NCBI GenBank assembly: GCA_009602725.1 | Contig: WELB01000024.1 | Location: 463,450 to 512,214 of the forward strand | DNA: 48,765 nt | Reading direction: 5' to 3' | DNA from: Spirogloea muscicola | Lineage: Eukaryota > Streptophyta > Zygnematophyceae > Spirogloeales > Spirogloeaceae | Shown here: positions 5,304 to 48,765 of the stretch, in pieces | Layout of the letters: every line of letters starts with the position of its first letter | How positions within the stretch are numbered: position 1 is the first letter of the stretch | Translations under genes and position numbers: made by a program | The notes under the pieces: generated by a model | Told to the model about the DNA's origin: nothing | Databases searched by the model: none | The model's input: only the letters and a program-made list of their open reading frames with translations

Positions 5304-5662
5304 TCCGCCGTGCCGTTCACTCTTTTTTGGGCTGGCTATTCCTGCCCCTATCCTCAGTCAATCTGGCCGCGCTTCTTCTGTCCTCAATGGGCGAGCACTT
5401 TCATCTTGGGGGTCGCATGCGGAGAAAGGCGCGTGGTGCACATGTACCAGAAAGGAAGGTGCTCGCCCATTGAGAAGAGGGGCTGGCAAAGCCAACCCAA
5501 AAAGAATGGACAATGTTCAAAGCCAAAGAAAGAGGTGCTGAAAAAGGACTACACTACAAAGTGCAAGACGGTGCAGAGGGAGATGCAGATGGCTGTTCAG
5601 TATCCACGTGTGAGCAACAGCAGATCAGAGTAACTCGGAGCAGGAGAAGCGGCACTTTGCCG
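5304..5662 (-). mobile_element. LINE 3' end with inverted pair of hairpin modules
   Basis: Two copies of the GGCTGG/CCAGCC hairpin module face each other. A minus-sense arm lies at 5310-5400, ending GGGCGAGCAC. A plus-sense arm lies at 5459-5530, starting GTGCTCGCCC. The right arm continues at 5540-5662 into a minus-strand LINE C-terminus that ends L-T-R-G-Y-stop (TAC TGA on the minus strand near 5595). The segment 5459-5662 is nearly the same as 47705-47903. There is an ambiguous base at 5663. The frame is broken and the copy is 5'-truncated. Confidence 0.7.
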
Positions 5663-7684: not shown

Positions 7685-10600
7685 ATGTACGGTGGAGGTG
7701 AGCTGCTTTCCCAGCTGGCCTCAGCTTTCAAGACATAATAGCTGTGCGAGGACCAGCCGTCGGGCCGGAGGCGCGCAGGCCCGTCTTCCGGCAGGGCAGG
7801 ATCGACGGCAGGGGCGCTTGCCTGAGCCCCTGCGATGGTGCTCACCCGAGCGGGGCGTCCGCCGCAGACGAGGTGTCGGCGATCGTGCTCGACTTGGGCT
7901 CCCACGCCATCAAGGCCGGCTACGCGGGCGAAGACTCCCCCAAGGCCGTCTTCCCCTCGGTGAGAGAAGGGGCTGCTGGAAGGTGGCTCGCTGCTGCTGC
8001 CTGTCCAGCCAGCGGGCCCATTGCCATTGGCAGCAGGAGGGCACGGCAATGGCTAACGACAAGGCCCACTGAGCTTCCTGCAGACCAAGCACCCCGTCCC
8101 TCAGAACCCCTGAGCATGAAAGCAGTGCCTACCAAACCCCAGGCTAACCTTGCTTGGCGCAGGCCGTCCTTCGGGACGGCCGACTTCAGCCATGACCTGA
8201 CTATACTCAGACGCGCCCACTCCCTGGGACGGGCCAGAGGGCTACGGCTCGACATAGATCTCCTGGCGCCGCCGTGGAGCTCCATGCACGCCCTTGTGGC
8301 CATCAAGCTCGTACAGCCGAAGCAGCAATAAGGACACAGACTCTTAGTTAGTACACCAATGCTGCAGGTTGTGGGCGTCGTTGCTCAGTCCGAGGCCGAC
8401 CATAATGGTGTCAGCCACCCAGCTGCCAATGGCAAGGAAGGCTCACAGCAGAAGGGCGCAAGGAAGCTCTATGCCGGGGCCTCTGCGCTGGGCTATCGGC
8501 GCGATCAGTGCGAGGTGGCTGCTCTTGAACATGCCCCTTCACTCCATTTGAAGTAGCCGTGCAGGTGCCTGCATTTCGAATATGCTCAATGGAAATCTTC
8601 TGCATCTGCATGCTCCAGGTTCTAAGCGAGCCACATCTTGCCACCATGCTCTTACGCCAATGAACATCCGTGCAGTGCAGGCCATTCCTGCTATGAAGGA
8701 TGGTCAAGTTGCAGACTGGGAGCTGGTGGAGGCCCTGTGGAATCACGCACTGAGGTGCGCCGAGCACAGCCTTGCCCACGCTCCAAGAAGCTTCTTCTTG
8801 CGATTGCATACACGTAGACCGCAAATGGCAAGGTCCCCATTCTGACAGGATAGCGGGCTCGGGAGTGTGCGCAGAGACAGGCTGCTCATCAACCCCCAGG
8901 AGCATCCTATGCTGCTGGCTGAGCCCTCCTTTGTCGCAGCGTCACTGCGAGAACGGTGAGTTGCACCTGCCGCCTTGAGGTGGGCAGCCACCATCCAGTA
9001 CTCGTAGCCCGACAGAAACAATTTTGTCCTCGGATATGTAGCGATTATAGCCATATATATCTGGCGCGAATAAGGCGGATATATAGCCCCTCTATTTAAT
9101 AGCTTATTACAACTTTTACTTTGACCTGCGGGTGTAACGTGGGCAGCTTTGTTGAGCCCATTTTCGAGACAGCCTGATGATAACAACTTTACCAAAGTCC
9201 ATGGCAGCGTGGCTACTGACCTGCAAAACCTGTGTGAGCAGGTGTGTTGAGCTCATGTTTGAGACACAGGCCGTGCCTGCACTTTTTCTCGCCAAGAATG
9301 CCGTGAGTTCGCAAATGTGCCTCCCTCGATATGACCTTGCACACTGTCTAGGGAGTCCACAGCATACTTGGCACTTAGAAGAGCCCACCTTGCAGCAGGC
9401 ACCACCTTGCATGGTGGCACTTGAAGGACTGAAGAAGACTGACGAAGCGCTTTGTCTTTCTTGAACCTGTCTTTGGCTCTTGGAGAGATAAGTGCATGCA
9501 CTTTTACCAGCGAGACGAAGGTGGCGGCGTTGGTAATATTGAGGCTCACACATTGTGTCATGCTACCCAACTTGCAGGTCCTGACTTCGTTCGCTTCAGC
9601 TCGGTCGACGGCACTTGTGGTGGACAGGTGAACGGACGCACTGAACAACTTGATTCAGCAGTCATTGGCAAGCAGCTCTGCAGCTTGTACAAAGCTTAGA
9701 AGGCAGGACATTGCTTGCACAGGAGCACTACGCTCTTCAGTCGTGCCTCAATGTAAAGTGCGCGTTCTGCAGCGTACACGATACTAATCTTGCAAACTGC
9801 TCACCATCCTTAGCGGAGGCTCTGGGACTACCATTGCTGCTGTCCACGATGGATATGTTCTGCAGAAGGTGTGAACGGTGTAGCTTGCTTGCACTCAGCC
9901 ACTTATTAGATTACTTCTTCTATGTGCACTGATAGTTGTGACTGCCACGCCCACCATCTAGAGCTTGGCACCCTATCCTGCCTTAGTGAGCCACTCTCCT
10001 TTGCTCAATGAGTACTGATGCAAAGTCACCATTCCTGCAATCATAGTCCATCGGGAGGACAGTGATCGGAGGAGATGTTTTGACGGAGTGCATGCTCAAG
10101 CTAATGGAAGGCAAAGGAGTCACGGTAAGCACCTAAGGCCACCGCACAAGTGCATGAGCAATGTATCCACTTAGACAAATGGGACAGCATTCGGACAGCC
10201 CGTGTCTCATTCGCAGAGTGCCTATCCTGGACGTGAGAAGTGTGACTGCTTCTTGCCGTGATTTTGCCTCGAAACCTGTCTCAGTGGGTGCAATAAGTAA
10301 TGTGACACCTTGCAACCTTTGGATCAGATCAGGCCTCGATATTCCTTCAAGCGGAAGGAGGTGCAGCCTGGGGAATTTGAGGTGCTCATCTGCAGTGTCC
10401 GCGCACCCTGCTTGACCTGCAGAACGTGCTTGCAACTTTTGGCAAGACCCACAAGTGGGATAGTATGCTCTCTTGTGCTCCAGTCAGACACTTCAGAAAT
10501 TTGAAATCTGCAGTCTCATGCTCAGGTTGTCAACCTGGAGTTCTCAAAGACTGCAGAATCCTATCGGGTGTACATGCAGGTTCATTTGTATATGCTATCC

Positions 10601-20200: not shown

Positions 20201-20620
20201 CTTTCGTTACTATCAGCACGCCGCGTCCCAGAAAAAGGCCAGCCCAATGTGGAACTTGTTCAATTCTCAGGGCTGGCTTTTCACAGCCCTCGCCCCCTTC
20301 TGATAGAGGGGCACAATCCAGACTGGTTACGGCAGTGGAAGACGATCGCCGCAGAAGGTTGAGGAGGCTGCCAGAGATTCAGAACAATCCAAGGAGCTTG
20401 GCAAGACTGACTTCTCTGGCCACACCTGGTGCCACTGACTGAATCACCTCTCCCCCCGTCGCCAACGCCTTCAGCATCAGCTCCGAGGCCTTTCGGTTTC
20501 TGTATCTTAGCGCTTCCCCTGGCCCCCTTCTCGTACTCTGTTCATTCTTTTTCGGGCTGGTTGTTCCAGCCCCTATTCTCAATGGGCGAGCACTTTCTTC
20601 TTTCGGACATCGCTTCAACT
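20201..20620 (+). repeat. Two hairpin modules (LINE 3'UTR fragments)
   Basis: Modules lie at about 20250-20320 (GGGCTGGCTTTTCACAGCCC) and 20505-20600 (GGGCTGGTTGTTCCAGCCCC, then AATGGGCGAGCACTTTCTTC). The second begins CGCTTCCCCTGGCCCCCTTC, the same lead as at 46553 and, inverted, at 46780. They are 3' tails of retroelement copies; the second directly precedes the next LINE fragment. Confidence 0.7.
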
Positions 20621-20639: not shown

Positions 20640-21440
20640 AATTGCCTGATTGGGGTGCGCCAGTGCGAGTACGGCTTCCGTGCAGAGGGTGCTGTGCTCG
20701 CCACTCACATGCTGAGATGCCCCACTGGACCAGAAGTGGTGGGCATTCACAACCTCCTTCGCGATGCCCTGGCGGGCTTGATGCGCGACGCCGGCTACCG
20801 TGCGGTCGTGGAAGTCAACAATATTATGCCTATCACCACGGACGCCCAGGGACGTCATCATCGCCCGCACACTTGACATTGTGGGCGTGCAACCTGGTGG
20901 AGGACCACGGGCCCTGGTCGACGTTGTTGTTACGGAGGCATATAAAGGCCCAGCATCGACACACATCGCTGGGCACGCAGTGGGCGGCGCAGAAAAAAAA
21001 ACTTGCGGCATTACTCCGATTACCCCAGATGCGATCAGCTCCTGCCAGCGGCAATCGACATTTTTGGCTGTCTGGGTCCTCGTTTTCACACTCTCCTGCA
21101 AAACACCGCCAATCTAGGCTACACTCGACGTGCAGATGTGTTTCCGGCTGACATGGGCTTGCCAGCTGCCTATCTGTTGCTCTTGCGACGACGAGATTCG
21201 GCCTGTTTGCAGCGTGCTCAGGCTAGTGCCTTGCACCAGAAAGCTGGGCAAGCTCTAGTTGGTGGCAGACGGGCTCCGTTTCTGGTATTCATGCATCGAG
21301 TAGTGACTTATTTTTTGACCCGTGCTTATTGAGCGGGTCAATCTGCTGTAGGTTATGTAGATCTTTAGATGTGCTTGCCTTTGTACTTGGCCATTTGGCC
21401 TACATTTCTTTCTAATACACGGCATTCCCTTCGGAAGAGC
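20640..21440 (+). mobile_element. LINE C-terminal region with zinc-knuckle and nuclease-like block
   Basis: Read across two frames this is one of the longest copies. RQCEYGFRAEG ... THMLRCPTGPE is a C-x-x-G / H-x(3)-C knuckle. It is followed by HNLLRDALAGLMRDAGYRAV and VEVNNIMPITTDAQGR. After a frameshift near 20870 come LDIVGVQPGGGPRALVDVVV and GHAVGGAEKK. The end is LVFMHRVVTYFLTRAY-stop near 21330, and a 3'UTR of the TGTGCTTGCC type follows at 21366-21430. The order matches the 47840-48520 copy. The reverse transcriptase part is missing, so this is a 5'-truncated, inactive copy. Confidence 0.75.
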
Positions 21441-23290: not shown

Positions 23291-23882
23291 CAGATCGATG
23301 TACATCAGGCGACCTTACTTAAACCCTAAACCCTCATACAGCTCTTGAAGGCTCTTCTGGGCTGGCAGTTGTCCTCTTTGCTCATGCAGGCTTCGCAATC
23401 TGGCCGGTGTGGCCCTGAACACGACGGCCGATGGCGATGACGATGGCCGCTTGGATGCTTGATAACACTTCATCAACAGGCGGCTCTTCCACGTGACGGT
23501 CCCATTGGAAGGCCACGGTCTTAGGGGCGCGTGGAAAAGGCGTGCCCCACGCATGGAGGCCCCGCGGTTGACGCTGATGCTGACACTCTGAGCGCGGAGC
23601 TGACGCGGCGCCATCTCAGCTGGCCACTTGGCGAGGACTTCCGGCTGCGGCGGTACGGCTGCGTGGCTGCCAGTCTCAACATCTTCGCTAACTTGGCGCC
23701 ACTGGCGCCAAATCTGCGGCGAACGGGTCCGCCGTTGGTCGAGCGCCTGTCCAAAATAGGTCAGCGCTGCCAAATGTGGAGGCGCTGTCAAATTAGGGGT
23801 GCAGCCAGGAGCGTGGAGATATTTTCTCGCACTTTTTCAAGTTCAACTGTCGCATAGCGCAATTGCCGCCGCAGTCGCCGCC
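23291..23882. other. 5' flank of the J-domain/ferredoxin gene
   Basis: Two CCCTAAA-type telomere units (AAACCCTAAACCCT) lie at 23321-23334. The region 23500-23860 is open in several frames on both strands but none starts with a convincing ATG or shows a known motif. I read it as promoter and 5' leader. Confidence 0.4.
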
Positions 23883-26479
23883 ATGGCCTGTGCCGCCACC
23901 GCCGCCGCCGCCGCGGCGAGCGCCGTGGTGGCAGGCCCCGGCAGGGCGGCAGGCTCCGGCAGAGGCCCTCAAAGCGGGGCAGGCCGGCTCGTCCCGCGCA
24001 AGCGGCCGCTCGTCCACCTCGTCCCGGGCAGGCCGGCCCGCCGCAGCCCCTGCACTGGCATGGCGCGGGCCGCGCGATCGCCGGCCTCCGCGGCACCGCC
24101 CAGCCACGGGCTGGACTACTATGAGATCCTCGGCTTGGACGCGGCCGCGACGCCGGCGGAGATCAAGCGCGCATATCGGTGGCTGCAGAAGCGCTGCCAC
24201 CCCGATGTTGCCACCGGCGGCCTCGGCCACGACATGGCCACACTGCTCAACGAGGCCTACAGCGTGCTCAGCGACGCTGACTCACGTTCGGTATACGATC
24301 AGGTGAATGCAACACGGACGGTCTGTGCTGTCGCATCAAACATTATTGCCAGCATTGGCAGCAAAGCCATGATTGCCAGCTATAATGCTTGCCTGCCATC
24401 ATGCTACTGCTTGCCTGCCTCTGACTTTCGATTGAGCTGTTTTCCAGGATTCATGTACTTTCAATGTTGTACAGTCACTTATTTGATTGCGGCAATCAGT
24501 CCATTGTAATGTTTGTTCGTAGTAAAGCATTGCTGCGTTCTGGTGGATAGTGGACGCTTCAGTATGATCGAAGTTGCGTCCGGCACTCCATCCTCTACTG
24601 AGTGCAATTGTGCATTCGACACGGACTGGCTGCCTGCAGGTGCGATTGACCTGGCTCGAGCATGACGATTACACGGGGAAACCGCTCTATTCCACCTGGC
24701 TGGGACACCCCGAAGAGAAGCAGGCCGCTTTTGTGGACGAGTTCAGCTGCATAGGCTGCCTCCAGTGCGCTCTCCTGGCTGATCGCACCTTCAAGATCGA
24801 GAACCAGGGCGGCCGTGCACGCGCCGTCTCCCAGTGGGGCGACGATGAGACCACCATCAATGCTGCCATGGCAGCCTGCCCAGTCGACTGCATCCAGTAG
24901 GCTGCACTGTCGCCCTCCCTCTTCGGTTCTGTTCATATATGTCGTGACCGTCTCACTGCAGCTAAGGGCGTTGGACACAGGTTCATATCTGTAGGTGGCC
25001 TTCTAGGTGTTCTAGATGAAGCATTCAGAGATTCTACGTGCTTGGAATTGGTGGCTCACTGTGGCCTTGGTCGTCATGCAATTCCTCACAAAAGTGTGAA
25101 TGCTGCCACATGATTATGAATGTGCCGTTGTTTACTGTGTCCTATGTCGACCTGGAACAGCTGGGTGCCAAGGGAGCAGCTTCCTATCCTGGAGTACCTT
25201 ACCTCCAAGCTGCCGAGGATGGAAGTAGGCTTGATCAACCACAGTGGCGGTGGAGGCAGGAGGATGCCAGAGGATGTATTTTCTAGTGCTGACACCTTCC
25301 TGAAGAAGCGGGAGAAACAAGAGCAAGAAAGATCTCGGCATCAGGTAGTTGTTCAGCGGACAAGAGAGCTGTGTCCTCCCTCTTCTGCCCCTCTCCCATC
25401 AGTTGTATTACATACAATTGTCTGGAAAGAAAGGGCAGAGTGTTGTGACTTCTTTGATATTGTCCTCTAAGTCTCTTGTCACCCTTAATGCCTTACTCCT
25501 GCCACCCTGTTGCAATGCAGGAGACTCCAGCGCAGAGGAAAGCTCGCGTTGCGGCAGCCAGCGCCATTCAGACTCGTGCTGGGCGCTGGTGGCAGCATCA
25601 TGGTGCTCAAGGCGGGAAATCAAATTGGTCTGCTGACAATGTGGACGGGGTACAGGGACCCCTCATCCCCTTGTCGTGGCTCACAGAAGAGGAGAGGGTG
25701 GCAGGTGCCGCTGCTGCAGCAGCGCAAGCCTCAGCAAGACTGGCAGACGGCTCTGTCCTGCCTGACGACCTCCGTCGGTTGCAAGAGGCTGCAGAGAAGT
25801 TGCGCAAACAGGAGGTGGAGGGTGGCAGGTGAGAATGTCTTTCTGCCGATGCTCTTTCTCAAAGCCTGGTCAGGGATGTTCTCCCTTGATCTCTCTTAAA
25901 TATAATCATGAGCTGTCATAATCTGAGATGCTGGGGCTATTACACGGCCGTGCTCAATTTGCTCGCTTCTTTGACTGCAACTTTGATGCAATTGTCATGC
26001 ATACTATGAACAGGAGTAAACCACTGCAGGCTACAGCTGATTACTGGAAGCCCCGCAAAGCTAACAGTTGCTACGTACCATTCGCCGACATGGCCGAGGC
26101 TACTTCTCACGCAAGAGCTTGTAAAACAGCCTCGCCAACAAGCCACGTCAGCAGCGCCAGATCTACTCCAGCGGCTGCTGCATCAGACATGAAATCAGGC
26201 GCCAAGTTGGAGGGATTCCTCTCCATGGCGCCGCTGCTTGTGGCAGCTGCGGCTGCCATAGCGGTGGCCCTGACGAGTAATACAGAGGCTGCACAATCTG
26301 CACCTGCGGTGGAGAGCATACTCCTCCCTGCTGAGATGACAAGCGGCATCTATGCGCGCTCATTGCAGGCAGCAGTGGTTTGGTACACCCTCTCTGCGAT
26401 GGTTACTCATAGCATTGCCCTTCTGTCAGGCACTGTGGCAAGTGAGACATCAAAGGGTAGAGAGGGAAAGAGCGATTGA
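23883..26479 (+). CDS. Plastid J-domain plus 4Fe-4S ferredoxin protein (DJC76/DJC77/DJC82 type)
   Basis: Clear exons: 23883-24302, 24640-24896, 25161-25344, 25521-25828; a fifth probably starts at 26030. Residues 1-73 are Ala/Arg/Pro-rich, as expected for a chloroplast transit peptide. The J-domain spans about 75-140 (LDYYEILGLDAAAT ... RCHPD ... LNEAYSVLSDADSRSVYD) with the HPD triad at 106-108. A ferredoxin domain follows: FSCIGCLQCALL with Cys177, 180 and 183, and ACPVDCI with Cys220, a complete 4Fe-4S set. Then come HWVPREQLPILEYL and a charged alanine-rich helix (LTEEERVAGAAAAAAQ ... LQEAAEKLRKQE). The exon 5 junction is unsettled. With the strong donor at 25829 the frame ends at 26192. 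With a weaker donor it reads ATADYWKPRKANS and continues to 26479 with hydrophobic segments. Such proteins are stromal in plants, with a suggested link between chaperone and redox or Fe-S functions. Confidence 0.85.
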
Positions 26480-30832: not shown

Positions 30833-33552
30833 ATGGCGAAGGCCGCCGCGCCGCCTGCCGTGGGGGCGCCCCCCTTCGCCGTGGCCGCTGAGGTGAGCCA
30901 ACGCCAGGACTTTCTCACTACTGATCTTTGTCTCCTCTCTCTGCATGGCACACAGTGGCCGCCTTCCTGTGACACGCTCGCCAGCCCTATCGAGCTCCGT
31001 GCCTGAGGCGACAGGGTCATGGCCCGCCGCATCCCGTCTGCCAATCCACTTCATCTTGCCTCTTCAATTCACTTCATTCTGCCCGCCCAGAATGCGTGGG
31101 CGTACGACCTGCCGCCGGCAGCGGCGATCACCAAGGGCCGGCGCAAGTTCCAGGACCCGCTGTGGGTGCCGGTATTTGTGCTGCAGGCCGGAGCTGTCAT
31201 GGGCCTCGGCATCTGGATAGGCTGGCAGCAGTGAGGCACCTTAACATTTTCTCCAGTGGTCACTTCTCGCCACTTGTCTGTCGTCCCTCCTGCCACTGGA
31301 GTGCATCAGGTCGCTGGAGGACTACCTCTCATGCTCACACAAGCTACACACTCTGGCTCGCTCGAGCTGAGACACTCAGCTACTTTATGGGCGACCAGAG
31401 GCCTTTGCTATTCCATAGAGCATGACATTTGGGAGCTGGTGCTGTTGCACAGGTGGTCAACGGGCCGGCTGGAAACGCTCAGATTCTGGCCGGTGCTCGC
31501 TGCAGCCGCTGGCTGGGGCTGGGCGTATGCCATCATCTTCCTCATCCTCCTCTACGCAATCCCATACCCGCTCATCTTTGTCGCGGTCTGGCTCGGCCCC
31601 GTCAGCACAGGCATTGCCGCGGCCCTCACCTTTGTACGTGGAAGCTACGTCATTGGCATCCTCACGGCCATCCTCTTCGTCCTCGCGGTCCTGTGGGCAA
31701 TTGCACTCACCAGGAGGTCAGTGTCGGCCCTTTCCGGCAGGCAGCCTAGCTGCATTGGCGGGCACTGCCAGGACCTCCGTGACGTATATTGTCAGACTGC
31801 CGCAGGATTCCATTTGCCGTGGTAATGATTCGGCGGGCACTTCTCCTCTCTCGACAGTTTGCCTCCCTCTACGTTGCTGCATTTGCCACAATCTGCGTGT
31901 ACCTGGTATGAGCTCTTTGCTGTGCAATGCCCAACGAAGCTGTAGTGCTACCATGCCATTTTTGCAGTCGCCATCCCACTATCTAGAGAAGTGGATATTG
32001 TCTGATGAGGTACCAGACTGTGCAGGGCGGGTCAAGCATAAGGGTCTAGGGGTCAGATTCAAGGTTAACTAGTGTACAATCTAGTCTCAGGTTCCTGTGG
32101 TGGTGGATCTTAGCCATCATGGCGCTGCACTGCCTGTGCAGGTATACGATGCAGCGTGGACAGTGGGCGTGTCGGGGACTTTGTCCAAAACCAACACGAA
32201 CTACTGGTGGATCCTGACGCTTGCGATGCTGTCGCTCTTCTGGACGTCCGCAGTGGCCACCAATGTTGTCACTGTCACTGTGGCTGGCACCATTGCAGCC
32301 TGGTTCTACGCCAACGATGCCGCCTCTGCACCGCTGCACGCAGCCACGGCCGTCCACCACCCCGTGGCCCGCTCCCTATTCCGCGCCATCACGTACCACC
32401 TCGGGAGCATCGCCTTTGGCTCGCTCCTCACCGCACTCATTCAGACACTGCACTGGGTGGTGAGCAGCACTGCCTTGCTGCTGGATTCAGGCAGTGCAAC
32501 TGTCCTAGCTTCGCTCCTTGCAGCCATAGTTAACTGCAACCTTTGCCTCACGCTGGTGCATTGTCAAACTCTTGGCTAGCGGTGCAGGTCCAGCAAATTC
32601 GTCGCAATGCGGGGCAGGCCGGGGAGTTCGCTCAAGTGCTCCTTTGTGTGGTGGAATGCCTGATTGGCTTTTTGGAGAGCATGGTCCGCTTCTTCAACCA
32701 TTATGCCTATGTTGAGGTAAGAAATTGGGAGTCAAACACACCTGGGGCATCAGCTCAGGGTGCAGGGAGGAGGTGGAAGTGGTCTATATTTGTTGAGGAG
32801 TGTGAGAGTATTGTCTCTTGGCCTGTAAGGTCTCTTCCTTATCTTATTTAGCACTGTCATCCCTCCTGTCCCACCTCGTCTTCCCTCTTCCACTTCAAGC
32901 GATTGTCTATATTATAGTATTCAATTGCCAATTTTGCCACTCCCCTTCCCTGCCAAATTTCCTTCCCCTGTATGTGCCCAAACATCAAATCAACAAGCCT
33001 TATGTTTGTGTCTGGCAGGTTGCCATCTACGGGAAGCCGTACACTTTGGCGGCACGGGACACGTGGGAGCTATTCCACCGTCGTGGCATGCAGGCTCTCG
33101 TGCAGTATGACCTGACGCGCAGCGTGCTGCACCTTGGGGCGCTAGTTGGCGGCGTTGCGGCCAGCCTTGCTGCGGGCTTGTGGCTCAACTACACGGAGAA
33201 TGGCCGCTATGATGACCGTGCGGTTGTTGTCGCTTTTGCAGCACTTCCCACCGCGGGCCTGATTGTGAGGCCCCCCTTCAACCCTACCCCCAACCCACTC
33301 ACTCCCGCCCTCTTTCACAGTAGTTTTGAGTCCTCATTACTGGTGTGCCTATGTCTGCTACCTGTCGTTGTTAGCGACCCCTTCTGACACCTGGCGTGGC
33401 TTTGAGTGATGCAGACGGGTATCCTTTTTGAGGTGATTGGGAGCATTGTTACTACGTTGTTCGTTCTATATGCAGAGGAGCCGACGCGCTTGCAGCGCCT
33501 GGAGCCCGCGTTCTACCAAGAGCTCCAGGCAGCGCACCACCACAGGAAGTAG
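30833..33552 (+). CDS. Choline-transporter-like protein (SLC44/PNS1 family)
   Basis: Eight exons: 30833-30892, 31091-31230, 31453-31716, 31806-31905, 32142-32459, 32588-32716, 33019-33264, 33415-33552. They give 464 residues. CTL proteins are polytopic plasma- or organelle-membrane proteins implicated in choline or ethanolamine transport. Visible hydrophobic segments: WVPVFVLQAGAVMGLGIWIG, AYAIIFLILLYAIPYPLIFV, YVIGILTAILFVLAVLWAIA, FASLYVAAFATICVYL, WWILTLAMLSLFWTSAVATN, then a long hydrophobic run, VLHLGALVGGVAASLAAGLW and GSIVTTLFVLYAEEP. Family hallmarks are TRRRIPFAVVMIRRAL after the third segment and RFFNHYAYVEVAIYGKPY, followed by AARDTWELF. Joining exons 3 and 4 as AG|G restores the RRRIPFA motif, which fixes that boundary. 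The C-terminus is short and His-rich (AAHHHRK). Confidence 0.9.
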
Positions 33553-35399: not shown

Positions 35400-36310
35400 G
35401 CGTGCTGGGCGTGCTCTAAGTCAGGCTAACGGCTTCTGTGGCGGCTCCCCGGCTCCCCAAGTTAGCCTGTCAGATTTGCATGTCCTCACTCGAGGGTGCT
35501 AGCGTCACACTTGTACCTTCTAATAGGGCTTCGTTCATGTAGCCTCAACTTTTGCACAAGCATCTGCCTGAATAGTGTGTTAGTTTGACTTGGCCAACCT
35601 TGCATTTCAAATGTTGACCGCGCGCCTTATTTCTGGCTCTGTTGACCTCCTTCATAGAAGTAAGCTCTTCCAACGGAATAGAAGTGGCTCTTCCGAAGGA
35701 AGAGAAGTGGCTGTTCCAAACGGGCCGGGGGCTCTGAATGGCCAGCCCAGAAAGAATGAACAAGGTCCAGAACGGCCGAAAGGCGCCAAAACCACACAGG
35801 TATGCAAGAGCCACACAGCACATGGAAGCTAAGTAACCCCAATTCAGAAGCCGCAAGTCGAAATGAGTCGCAGCTGGAAGCGAGGCACCCCAACGAGAAG
35901 CAGCAGCCATAGCACGGCCTGCCCGCAAACGCACTGCGTGAGCCTAAGACCGTTGGAAGGACATGGATAGCCGCATGAGAAGAAAGTGGCTCTCCCAACT
36001 GGGAGAAAGGCCCTCAGACAAGCCAATCCGAAGAGAGTTGACAAGAACAGCATAAGGAACACCTGACCCCGGCGGCGTTGAGCCGGGCAGTACACCTTGC
36101 TGTCGCCGTCGACGATCGATGGCCCGCCTCGCAAGCCGCTGCAGAAGGTCCAGCCACCGACTGCCAAACGGCGACAGAAAGCAATAACGCCGACTGCCTG
36201 TATGCTCCCGGCCGGCTGGCTTCAAGTCATGTCTTTCAGCGCTTTTCGGCAGTCACGAACACCCTCTGTATTCACCTGGCCAGCTTTGACGGCTGCTCAT
36301 TTAATATCAG
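35400..36310 (-). mobile_element. Nested LINE fragments upstream of the DUF2252 gene
   Basis: 35408-35500 is a copy of the subfamily b element in reverse orientation to that at 5760-5840. 35680-35790 and 35985-36045 are hairpin modules (GGGGGCTCTGAATGGCCAGC then CCAGAAAGAATGAACAAGG). 36090-36160, read on the minus strand, encodes FCSGLRGG or, in the next frame, GSRWLDLLQRLARRAIDRRR, the block after GAFG. 36245-36310 repeats the plus-sense tail seen at 412-480 and 45422-45485. All are broken. Confidence 0.65.
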
Positions 36311-40430: not shown

Positions 40431-41440
40431 TGTCATAGCAGCAACCGACCCATACTTGCAGAAGTGCTCGCCTTGGTAATCGGCCGCTCAGGCCCTCCAT
40501 CATTGAGCAAACGCTTCTCTCTACTCCTCCCTGCAGGAGGAGGCGTGCGCAGCGGAGTGCCCGTGCCTCCATTCAGCTCAACTGACTTACTGTCGCTGCT
40601 GACACGATGGTATCAAGGGGGCCTGAGCTGCCTAGCTGGGGCTCTACGTCTTGCAGAAAGTGCAAACGTGCCCTGTATGCACTTGCTGGCCTCTAAATTT
40701 ATTTTGTACAACCTGGTGGAGGACCACGTACCTTGCAATGCAGCGTCGAACTACCTAGCTGGCCACGCAGTGGGTAGTGCAGAGAACTTCGCAGCACTAC
40801 TTCAACTTAGCCCGCTGAGATCGCCTCCTACTACCCGCTGTCAACATCTTTGCACAGGTTGCACAGGTCCTCGTCTCCACATCGAAGTCGAGAATATTAC
40901 TATGAGGATATGCACGACGCGAGGATGTGCTTCCGAGGGGAATGGGCCTGCCTGCAGCATAAATGTCGTTCTTGCGCCATCTTGTGGTCAGCCTGTTTGC
41001 AGCGAGACTAGGCTCATGCTTTGCACCAGGAAGCTGGACAAGCTTCTCTTGGTAGCAGAAGCGCTTGAGATTTGCCGTCCGGTGTTTGGCCATCGATCAG
41101 CGACCTCTGATCGCTGACTGTGATCACTGAGCGGGCCGGCTTGGCAGCAGGTGATGTACATCTGGAGATGTGCTTGCCTTGTACGTGGCACTCAGGCACT
41201 CCATCACCCAATACACGCTTTTTGCTTCCACAGTGTTCCTGCTACCAGCAGCCGCTTGTCATGTCCATCCTTCCCCCTTTTCTGGGGAGCTTCTTGCATG
41301 CGCCTGGCCGAGAAGGCAAGCGGCTACTGAAAGAGAAAGACCCAGTAGAGGGCGATGGCTGTGCTTGGCCAGCCCAGAAAAAAAGCAATGAATAACTGCG
41401 AAGGGGCCAGAAAAGCATGATTTCAGCGCATTGCTGAAAA
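40430..41440 (+). mobile_element. Two degenerate LINE C-terminal copies
   Basis: 40500-40620 read SLLLPAGGGVRSGVPVPPFS followed by LLTRWY, a mutated L-T-R-G-Y end. A second copy follows. It has NLVEDHVPCN and GHAVGSAENF (the nuclease-like block), then SETRLMLCTRKLDKLLLVAE. Its 3'UTR is at 41165-41225 (GGAGATGTGCTTGCC, AATACACGC). Next is a hairpin module at about 41350-41420 (GGCTGTGCTTGGCCAGCCC, GCGAAGGGGCCAGAAAAGC). Frames are broken. Confidence 0.6.
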
Positions 41441-44716: not shown

Positions 44717-45510
44717 CTTCGCAGCCTCTGGTTTGCGCAGCGGGGTTGCTCCACATCCCTCCGCTCATCTTACTTCCTATGCTTGACACCGATGTAGTGA
44801 CAACTGACTGCATCGACTCCGCCATTTCCGCCAGATCGGCGTCGTTTGCAGGGCACGCGGTCGGCCTGGCGGCCCGGGGCAAGGAGCGAAAATAGTCCCG
44901 ATCACCCGGGTGGTGATGAATCCGCTGCCCTGGCGATAAATGTACACGGGGCTTTCGGCAGCCGCTGCCTGGATCTTCTCCAGCGGCTAGCCCGTCAGGC
45001 CATTGACCGGCGGCCGGGTCTGCCGGGGCGATGCCCGGCTTCAACGCCGCCAGTTCGCTCGCCCAAGTCTTCCGTATGCGCCTGGCGGTATCGTTTCAAC
45101 GCTCCCTTGCCTATGCCGTCCACACGCGAGCAGGCCGAGCTATGACCGCCGCCTCTGGGTCTCAGCGCAGTGCCTCTTTCCCTGCAGCAAGCTACTCCGA
45201 CCTGGTATTGTTCACTCGCGGGTACTGAGCTTCCCTCTGCATCGTCTTGTGTTTGTAGTGTTTTGCAGTGCAGTCCTTCGGCACCTCGTTCTTTGGCTTT
45301 AAACATTGTCCATTCTTTTGGGCTGGCTTTGCCAGTCCCTCTTCTTAATGGGCGAGCACTTTCTTCTGACTCGGGGGTTCTAAGAGCGCAGTATCTGCCT
45401 AGCTGGTGGTTCCATTAGTATGGTCATGAACACCCTCTGTATGCACCTGGCCAGCTTTACAGCGGCTCCTCTGAAAATCAGCAGCCACACTCTTTCTTTT
45501 GGCTCTTGCT
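44717..45510 (+). mobile_element. LINE C-terminal copies with hairpin 3'UTR
   Basis: 44717-44800 repeats the ASGLRSGVAPHPS end. 44800-45000 carries, in shifting frames, DCIDSA and FAGHAVGLAARGKERK. 45031-45228 is a clean C-terminal frame, PGFNAASSLAQVFRMRLAVS through DLVLFTRGY-stop. The 3'UTR follows at 45229-45370 with hairpin GGGCTGGCTTTGCCAGTCCC and AATGGGCGAGCAC. At 45372-45490 a further tail (CTCGGGGGTTCTAAG, TCATGAACACCC, CAGCAGCCAC) recurs from 366 and 36245. The copy lacks any reverse transcriptase domain. Confidence 0.75.
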
Positions 45511-46165: not shown

Positions 46166-46640
46166 CACTTGCTCAACCAGCTCTCACGTCACGCCATCGT
46201 CCACCACTTTTATGGGGAGCCGGTGGACTTCCATGCAGCCGGGTCGCTAGCGCAGGTGTACCGCATGCGCTTGGCCGTCTCGCTGCAGAGGTCTATGGCC
46301 TGCGCGCTGCCCCTCCGTGCCAGAAGAGCCCTCGCTGCTGCCTCTGGCCAAAACCCGCTTCCAGGAGCCACTTTCTCTGGCCTGAGGCTGCTTAGCAGGC
46401 GTTACTGAGTGATTCGAAGCTGCTTACTTTCTATTTGTGCTTCTTTTTCTCCTCTTTCTTTGGCTTTGGACACTGTCCATTCTTTTTAGGCTGGCTTTGC
46501 CAGCCCCTCTTCTCGATGGGCGAGCACTTTCTTTCTTCTTTACTTAGTGCTTCCCCTGGCCCCTTCTCGTGCTTTGTTCTATTTCTATTTTGGGCTTGTT
46601 TTTCCAGCCGCTATCCTCAATGGGCGAGCACTTCTCTTCT
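46160..46640 (+). mobile_element. LINE C-terminus with two tandem hairpin modules
   Basis: The frame 46169-46408 reads LNQLSRHAIVHHFYGEPVDF, AAGSLAQVYRMRLAVSLQRS and LRLLSRRY-stop, the family's conserved C-terminus. Its 3'UTR holds two successive modules. The first, at 46465-46540, is GGCTGGCTTTGCCAGCCCC then GGGCGAGCAC. The second, at 46553-46640, is diverged and starts CTTCCCCTGGCCCCTTCTCG. This is the clearest example linking the hairpin to the protein end. Confidence 0.78.
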
Positions 46641-46669
46641 CTCACTGCATGCGCTGCCTTTAGGAATAA

Positions 46670-46920
46670 GAGGAAGAATGGGAGGATAAGAAGAAAGGGC
46701 TCGCCCATTGAGGATAGTGGCTGGAAAAGCCAGCCCAAAAAAGAATGAACAAAGTACGAGAAGGGGGCCAGGGGAAGCGCTAAGGAAAGCAAGGACAAAA
46801 AGAAATAAAGCAGCTACGAAGCACTTAGTACCCCGTGCTAAGCAGCCTCAGATCAGAGAAGCTGGGCTTCCGGAAGCTGGTCCCCTGGCCAGCGAGAGAG
46901 AGAGAGAGGAGAAAAGGCGC
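46670..46920 (-). mobile_element. LINE 3' end, minus strand
   Basis: GGGCTCGCCCATTGAGGATA and hairpin GGCTGGAAAAGCCAGCC at about 46720-46736 precede, on the plus strand, the inverted tail CGAGAAGGGGGCCAGGGG. Then, near 46830-46915, comes the inverted LRLLS-T-G-Y-type end. It faces the plus-strand copy at 46160-46640, so 46465-46790 forms a large inverted repeat. Confidence 0.7.
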
Positions 46921-46939: not shown

Positions 46940-47520
46940 AGGGAGGCCAATTCAAGCCAACACATTGTTCAGGCAGAGTCTAGGGCAAACTAAACAAGGC
47001 TACATAATACGGAGACCTAAAGTTAGGTGCCTAAGGTGATACTAGTACCCACGGGTGAGCACAAACAAATCTGACCAGCTAACTTGGCGAGCTGGAGCGC
47101 CGCCACAAAAGCCGGAGGCCTGACTTAGATCGTGCCCTGCACGTTGATGAAAAGCCAATGCTTGCGAGCGCTGCAACGTAAGCAATAGCCGCATGCTATC
47201 ATATGCAAGTAAGGCTTGCGGAATGCTGGAGTGGCCCAAGCTGCCCCCCCGACTTCGACGGCGCGCATCAACCAGCCGGGCCAGATGTTGGATCAGGGAG
47301 GACCATTTCACGCCGTAGCCTCCGCAGATATCCATGGCACACGGGTAAAGATGCCCCCCCCCGGGGATGGTCCTGGTAGTGCCGATCCTTCTTGCGCTCC
47401 GCGCTGGACGTTGCCCAGCCAGACACGGTTGACGCGGGTGCGCCAGCCTTGTATGCGTCGATCAGTACCACGTCCAAGAGCAGACGAGGCCCACTGCCCC
47501 GGGGGTTGGCGACCACGTCC
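46940..47520 (-). mobile_element. LINE copy with subfamily b tail
   Basis: The minus-strand frame 47335-47042 reads MDICGGYGVKWSSLIQHLAR through MRLLLTLQRSQALAFHQRAG and ends SWSDLFVLTRGY-stop. Upstream, in a shifted frame (47500-47380), are LLLDVVLIDAYKAG and GWATSSAERKKDRHYQDHPR, the nuclease-like block. The 3'UTR at 46946-47041 equals that at 5665-5745 (GGAGACCTAA, ACATTGTTCAGGCAG). Confidence 0.75.
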
Positions 47521-48530
47521 AGAGAACAAAGTGCTCGCCCACTGAGGATAGGGGCTGGAAAAGCCAGCCCACGTCCAGACGCCCCACGTATGGCTTGCCG
47601 CACCTTGAGGAGATTGGCAAAGACTCCCAATGGGGGCAAGGGCTGTGAAAAGCTAGCTCGACAACAATTGACAAAGGTTCGAAGGGGCCAAAACGAAGAA
47701 TAGCTCGCCCATAGAGGAGGGGCTGGCAAAGCCAACCCAAAAAGAATGGACAATGTCCAAAGCCAAAGAAAGAAGTGCCGAAAAAGGACTACACTACAAA
47801 GCGCGAGACGGTGCAGAGGGAGATGCAAATGGATGCTAAGTATCCACGTGTGAGCAATAGTTGATCAGAGTAACTCGAAGCAGGAAAAGCGGCACTCTGC
47901 CGAGACCCGGAAGCAGCAGCCTTAGCACGGCCAGCGCGCGCGTGGACCGCATGAGCCAAAGAGCGCTGTAGCGAGACCGCCAGCCTCATCCGAAAGACCT
48001 GCGCGAGGGAGCCGGCAGCATTGAAGCCTGGCGAACCCTGCCGCCGCTCGATGGCCTCCCGGGCAAGCCGCTGGAGGAGATCCAACCAACCACTGCCGAA
48101 GGCCCCGTGTACGTCAATGGCCAGTGCCGCGAAGGCATCGCCTGGAGGGTGGTCAAAGTACTTGCGCTCCTTACTCCGAGCCGCCAAAGCGACCGCGTGC
48201 CCGACGAGCGTCGCCGACTTCGTGGGGTTGGCCGAATCAACGCAATCTGCAGTCACCAGATCAGCGATGATATGCGGACCTCCTCCGGGCGGGATGGCAA
48301 CGAGGTCCGCGCGGCGGGTGTGAAGCTGTCCGTCAGCGCCCCGCAGGATGGGCATGATCGTCGAGTTCCCCACTGCCACCTTGTGGCCGGCCTCCAGGAA
48401 CACACCCTGCATGGCGTCTCGCAGGAGGTCGTGTGAACCTGTCCGCTCGCCTCCGTGCGCGCAGCGGAGCATGTGGGCCGCCAGCGCCGCAGGGTCATCG
48501 TGGCGGGCACCGCACTCGCACCAGAAAGAA
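47521..48530 (-). mobile_element. Longest LINE C-terminal copy, minus strand
   Basis: Three hairpin modules (47525-47575, 47625-47695, 47702-47760) precede, on the plus strand, an open minus-strand frame from 48472 to 47789. Its order is: CECGARHDDPAALAAHMLRC (knuckle, just upstream of the frame's ATG), GSHDLLRDAMQGVFLEAGHK, NSTIMPILRGADGQLH, RRADLVAIPPGGGPHIIADL, GHAVALAARSKERKYFDHPP, AIDVHGAFGSGWLDLLQRLA, PGFNAAGSLAQVFRMRLAVS, and LLLTRGY. The usual TGA after LTRGY is TTA here, so the frame runs on about 19 codons. The copy begins abruptly at the knuckle, directly behind another copy's tail, with no reverse transcriptase. Confidence 0.8.
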
Positions 48531-48765
48531 GAAGAAGGGCTCGCCCATTAAGAATATGGGCTGGAACAGCCAGCCCAAAAAAGAATGAACAGAGTACAAG
48601 AAGAGGGGGGGGGAAGCCAGGCGAAGCCCTAAGGCGAAGCAGCAGAAATGACAAGCACACAAGAAAAAACAAAGCAGCTACTAACCACTCAGTAACCCCT
48701 GCTAAGCAGGCGCAGGTCGGAGAGGCTATGCTCCTGGAAGTATGTCCCCTGGCCAGAGCCAGAGG
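48531..48765 (-). mobile_element. 3' end of a further LINE copy, cut by the window edge
   Basis: On the plus strand: GGGCTCGCCCATTAAGAATA, hairpin GGCTGGAACAGCCAGCC (about 48559-48575), AAAAAAGAATGAACAGAGTA, then, read on the minus strand, SLSDLRLLSRGY-stop at about 48690-48735. The tail of this copy adjoins the truncated start of the next one at about 48530. The element continues beyond the window. Confidence 0.72.

Follow-up and report, generated by a model that had tools for sequence, protein, structure and literature searches.

The window analysed here is a stretch of 48,765 nucleotides (nt) from the zygnematophycean Spirogloea muscicola (contig WELB01000024.1, positions 463,450 to 512,214 of the forward strand), in which a short hairpin module with the arms GGCTGG and CCAGCC recurs. 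The module is the 3' end of a non-long terminal repeat (non-LTR) retrotransposon, a family with thousands of copies in the genome. The reading that we favour, with moderate confidence, is that an R2-type element carries the hairpin as a constant component of its 3' end, where it is likely a recognition tag for the element's own protein.

The module that served as the starting point lies at 46450-46538 on the plus strand, and the sequence at 46465-46540 reads CTGTCCATTCTTTTTA, GGCTGGCTTTGCCAGCC, CCTCTTCTC, GATGGGCGAGCAC, which agrees with a preliminary description of this DNA apart from differences of one or two bases. The hairpin itself, GGCTGG-CTTTG-CCAGCC (GGCTGGCTTTGCCAGCC, 46489-46505, plus strand, assigned from sequence and fold), starts 80 nt past the stop codon of a retrotransposon C-terminal coding remnant (46166-46405, plus strand; residues 982-1064 of the element protein P0001, 69% identity by tblastn; TGA at 46406-46408). 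The mapping of the C-terminal end and the likeness between copy pairs mark 46409-46536 (plus strand) as the 3' untranslated region (UTR) of a 5'-truncated copy, the end of which would fall at about 46533-46536, where the likeness of other copies stops, 28-31 nt past the hairpin. The copy at 46166-46536 (plus strand) consists of the last 80-odd codons, the TGA, the hairpin and the 3' end. The preliminary count was about 27 copies in the window; a profile built from hairpin-bearing copies found 25 rows at E<=0.01 (13 on the plus and 12 on the minus strand), although a single copy may have been split into the two rows 5315-5357 and 5378-5409. The loops listed earlier were partly written antisense, GGCTGGCAAAGCCAGCC being the complement of GGCTGGCTTTGCCAGCC. 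A strict pattern of the module had 4 matches in the window against a mean of 0.00 over 100 shuffles, and no Rfam family reached its gathering score in the window.

Over the whole 153-Mb genome the same strict pattern, with at most two mismatches, gave 5,750 matches (2858 forward and 2892 reverse), while the reversed control pattern gave 0. The association with the element was studied in a non-redundant sample of 280 kb. Good module matches had guided the choice of its sequences, and its densities are therefore not genome averages. It contains 93 C-terminal ends of the element protein, with TGA immediately after 70 of them, and a same-strand module follows within 400 nt downstream at 63 of the 90 ends with room for one, compared with 586 of 4773 random positions (12%); 48 of these 63 modules end 125-190 nt from the C-terminal end. 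A module on the opposite strand was found at 21 of the 90. As a check on selection, the 3' flanks were fetched for 15 of 46 places listed by protein match and picked across the identity range, and the hairpin was present in all 15, at 65-113 nt past the stop. The motif was located by pattern in these copies, so that the identity of their arms follows from the pattern itself and the finding is the presence of the motif in all flanks fetched. These results sustain the earlier assignment of the module to a retroelement 3' UTR.

The distance to the end of the element is fixed, as the preliminary description had led us to look for. Close copies at different loci were compared in 386 pairs, and their identity, which declines between +20 and +35 from the hairpin, falls to 0.69 at +28, 0.55 at +29 and 0.39 at +31, and is at background from about +35; the pairs had been preselected for 90% likeness up to +20, and only the fall after that point is therefore informative. 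Since the hairpin lies at a variable 65-113 nt past the stop codon and the likeness ends 28-31 nt past the hairpin, the hairpin is tied to the 3' end of the element and not to the stop codon. The copy L058, of a lineage with the loop TTGTT, diverges from the other copies of that lineage from 10 nt past the hairpin, and the element could perhaps end nearer to the hairpin in this case.

The protein was characterised from P0001, an unbroken frame of 1064 residues that ends 30 nt before one module and matches RVT_1 with E 1.3e-17. A profile of 38 aligned sequences found R2 chains at 2.8e-48 to 3.3e-24 and the best L1 chain at 1.3e-13, and a Foldseek search with the predicted model gave R2 structures as all seven best matches; judged by profile and predicted fold, the element protein is R2-type and not L2. 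Residues C837, C839, H852 and C856 are nearly invariant among relatives and correspond to a CCHC knuckle, and in two R2 chains the profile match reaches residue 1137 (of 1169) and residue 1359 (of 1390), respectively, which together point to a putative restriction-like endonuclease domain at the C-terminus; the fold alignment alone is not decisive for this domain, as L1 chains also align to the C-terminus. The assignment of its catalytic residues is tentative. A candidate C2H2-like motif was noted by eye, unscored, both in P0002 and, in a different frame, upstream of P0001. P0002 is a eukprot protein and the best relative of P0001; over 102 residues it matches the translation of part of L040 with 100% identity. 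The genome has no Exo_endo_phos_2 match, and none of its 10 Exo_endo_phos matches lies at the listed copies of this element.

A first look at the genome gave 20,105 candidates of the R2-type family, and among the scored copies several have an open frame of close to 1,350 residues. None of the 150 scored RVT_1 matches is longer than about 500 nt; their open frames are of e.g. 1,237 residues, and these are likely LTR elements. We noticed no paper describing the present element in the open-access literature that was searched.

Since the protein is R2-type and the stem-loop has a position similar to that in known systems, the protein likely binds the stem-loop. The RNA would fold as a stem-loop in the cell, and the protein, by binding it, would select its own RNA; the bound stem-loop would then place the 3' end of the RNA at the nicked target, where target-primed reverse transcription would start. 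By analogy with R2Bm, binding would probably occur via an N-terminal extension before the reverse transcriptase, and the loop may differ between lineages because each protein would in this way know its own RNA.

How far the conserved module is a structure depends on the behaviour of its stem. Across eight lineages the arms GGCTGG and CAGCC are present in all, while the loop is 0.60 alike and the flanks 0.57 and 0.53. When the window copy and seven lineages were folded, the folding energy was below that of shuffles in six of the eight sequences (z -1.96 to -3.60) and at background in two, and the best predicted fold differs for two lineages. Covariation was examined in an alignment made by sequence profile (228 hits), of which 154 entered the tree test with 60 null alignments, duplicates and rows with more than 12 gaps having been left out. 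This replaced a pair table drawn from copies preselected for pairing, which was circular; the hairpin-based collection of copies had kept 193 and missed 63 with no clear hairpin, and the invariant columns of the alignment A2 do not constitute independent evidence, since its copies were mostly picked for a visible hairpin. In the profile-based alignment the five best stem pairs are paired in 95.5-98.6% with zero double changes, and the inner pair 72-79 has a double change in one cell.

Two of these results weigh against recognition of a stem. In the tree-aware test no column pair had E below 0.467, in agreement with a counting tool, and of the cells with a single change in the stem, 27 retain a G-U pair while in another 27 the pairing is lost. 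The view that the outer pairing is kept while inner pairs vary, which had been put forward as the pattern of a selected RNA structure, is right as to the pattern, but the variation takes the form of inner pairs being lost and of changes on one side, and two-sided changes are no more frequent than in controls. By the covariation test that the preliminary description itself proposed, the claim of selection on structure received no support, there being no significant compensatory change in the stem; with so little variation in the stem, however, the power of this test was low. In our judgement the inverted repeat is strongly conserved and a structure is likely, covariation being hardly testable with these copies. 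A candidate outer stem, TTCATT/AATGGG, had been prompted by one double change (TCCAT/ATGGG to TCAAT/ATTGG) and was rejected, as it fails across families: among 28 representatives the observed mean was 10.89, whereas permuting the partners gave 10.87 and a value as high was reached in 199 of 400 permutations, and it was no better than shuffles in the counting tool.

The same observations leave room for an alternative in which it is the sequence of the arms, whether in RNA or in DNA, that is read and no stem is involved; binding by a protein would then be what keeps the inverted repeat. We consider this unlikely, though the most serious of the alternatives: the letters of the arms are identical in eight lineages with no significant covariation, stem changes break and keep the pair equally, and a part of the stretch upstream of the hairpin is conserved with no pairing partner. 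On the other hand, the arms stay complementary while the loop changes in both length and sequence, and six of the eight folded sequences are more stable than their shuffles. As the stem hardly varies, structure and bare sequence are not separated by these copies.

Less probable still, in our view, is that the hairpin acts as a terminator or processing signal that makes or protects the RNA 3' end, in which case the fixed distance would follow from end formation and not from recognition by the reverse transcriptase. The fact that the element ends 28-31 nt past the hairpin and is then followed by unrelated flanks would suit such a role, whereas the known R2-type elements and stringent long interspersed nuclear elements (LINEs) use stems in the 3' UTR for recognition by the protein. 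That the module is an independent palindromic repeat, resembling a short interspersed nuclear element (SINE) or a miniature inverted-repeat transposable element and found near LINE remnants by chance, is very improbable: a LINE C-terminal end within 400 nt is lacking for 160 of the 255 modules that have room for one, but 5' truncation accounts for the short copies, all 15 copies selected by protein bear the module at the 3' end, and the module has no tRNA-like head, ARAGORN finding no tRNA gene in the 31 sample sequences.

We thus return to the hairpin as part of the element's 3' end, and the way in which its copies arise is in line with this. The 5' ends of copies differ widely, and the shortness of most copies is due to 5' truncation. 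When homology was used to define the breakpoints, direct repeats of at least 9 nt beginning near the 3' end were found in 13 of 170 copies, compared with 1-4 in eight shifted controls; an earlier search, superseded by this one, was discarded for its control rate of 32%, which was due to nested repeats. In seven of the eight longest repeats the start lies 26-29 nt past the hairpin, and a few include element sequence. The target duplications are of 9-14 nt and occur in a minority of copies, which would fit old, decayed insertions. Truncated copies together with such duplications are the signature of a target-primed reverse transcription that often aborts.

Of the neighbouring modules within 20 nt of each other, 56 are on the same strand, 10 are convergent and 0 divergent (280-kb sample). 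Head-to-tail examples are found at L036:5707-6323, L040:3859-4130 and window 46450-46649, with differing lineages succeeding one another. Tail-only pieces (ATGGGCGAGC, no hairpin) are joined onto the tail of another copy in L033 (minus strand), L034:7591, L040:4035, L040:4100 and L050:3543; 12 of 105 ATGGGCGAGC sites have no 3' arm within 30 nt upstream, some merely through mutation. Nested insertion into the 3' tail and template jumping could both produce the head-to-tail arrays. It is tempting to speculate, although we would sooner doubt than accept it, that co-resident lineages share the letter-for-letter identical stem as a common docking key, with the loop as a lineage-specific password, and that their spread into each other's 3' tails builds the arrays.

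Not all related elements have this module. Among the 27 C-terminal ends that lack it, 13 were the seeds from which a different conserved 3' UTR was built up (33 hits), with the layout stop, about 95 nt and an end near AATACAC, and related elements therefore carry different 3' ends. In the window this sister-clade 3' UTR, which has other predicted hairpins in place of the present one, lies at 21330-21438 (plus strand, by profile), with further examples at 41128-41233, 273-349 and 40453-40522 (plus strand, by profile), and it is also found in L039, L046 and L045. One pair of its predicted 7-bp stem occurs in C-G and U-A forms (E 51), and its covariation is not significant, as 38 of 300 null sets reach the score of the whole helix. 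A second hairpin with GGCC was seen by eye roughly 22 nt from the end, blurred by indels in the alignment of 33 hits.

Several further copies in the window were placed by profile. Directly behind the first module is a second in the same orientation, head to tail (46538-46649, plus strand), followed by one in opposite orientation (46686-46792, minus strand), with the LINE C-terminal end mapped at 46828. A short copy cut at the foot of the hairpin (47524-47568, minus strand), identified by sequence and by the duplication search, has the 11-nt duplication CCACGTCCAGA at both flanks (47513-47523 and 47569-47579, base 47569 being assignable to either). Two more C-terminal coding remnants matched P0001 by tblastn: one at 47840-48520 (minus strand; residues 837-1064, 61% identity), with its module at 47696-47784 (minus strand) and the 3' end 144 nt past the coding end, and one at 44782-45225 (plus strand; residues 919-1064, 44% identity), with its module at 45278-45375 (plus strand), supported also by C-terminal end mapping. 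The modules at 48502-48637 and 35680-35783 (both minus strand) belong to profile rows with mapped LINE C-terminal ends at 48692 and 35833, respectively, and the module of the TTGTT-loop lineage at 20495-20611 (plus strand) has a hairpin identical to that of L051, a copy bearing an open reading frame. The LINE remnants in the window were detected by tblastn only, and there was no reverse transcriptase match among the 40 of 155 window open frames (at least 110 residues) tested against Pfam. Exons of host genes, all on the plus strand, were seen for actin (7702-8328), a DnaJ domain (23760-24506) and a choline transporter (32085-33384).

The RNA element read by R2-type proteins is known in detail for few animals, and such proteins are reportedly now used for RNA-templated gene insertion. 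The family described here is a dispersed R2-type family with long open frames from a likely relative of land plants, comprising at least eight lineages with a constant stem and differing loops, and these natural variants provide a means to distinguish the portion of the 3' RNA that is recognised in general from the one that is recognised specifically. If the notion of docking key and password were true, exchanging loops among the lineages of a single genome could reveal the recognition code directly.

The module can be compared in some respects with several known systems. The Zepp and Zepp-like LINEs of chlorophyte algae likewise form tandem arrays, mostly of 3' ends, through nested insertion and 5' truncation (PMC8226300), but Zepp is L1-type and the present elements are R2-type. 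A hairpin at the 3' end is also found within the green lineage in the plant L1 elements and monocot SINEs described by Ohshima (PMC3747384), where CGAG is conserved after the stem; here CGAG follows the stem in five of eight lineages, being contained in GGGCGAGC past the hairpin (46515-46527 and other copies), a likeness that may be coincidence. In Ohshima's hairpin the letters of the stem vary with compensatory changes and those of the loop are conserved, which is the reverse of what is seen here.

With R2 the element shares the sequence profile over the reverse transcriptase to near the C-terminus, the predicted fold and a 3' UTR stem close to the end, predicted in the present case; the candidate C2H2-like finger seen by eye lies upstream. 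The R2Bm protein binds two resolved 3' UTR stems through the extension before the reverse transcriptase (PMC10499050), and R2Tg reads a pseudoknotted element within the last 67 nt (PMC12222951). In contrast to R2 proper, which has a single site in 28S ribosomal DNA, the present copies are dispersed over many contigs with differing 3' flanks and short duplications, thousands of them short, and the module has one short stem, with the same letters in all the lineages. The preliminary description had instead likened the module to the stem-loop of UnaL2/L2, an analogy which holds for function only, because the protein is R2-type and not L2. The stringent LINEs of the L2 clade (UnaL2, ZfL2-1 and ZfL2-2) differ also in ending with TGTAA repeats, while the end here is pyrimidine-rich, and an apurinic endonuclease domain belongs to the L2 clade, while the genome here has no Exo_endo_phos_2 match. 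They have a 3'-terminal stem-loop; here too the inverted repeat has a fixed place near the 3' end, and its RNA fold is predicted. They require this stem-loop, stem and loop being read by different parts, and the model proposed for them by Hayashi et al. (PMC4176376), in which the stem is recognised generally and the loop specifically, fits the constant stem and variable loop of the present element.
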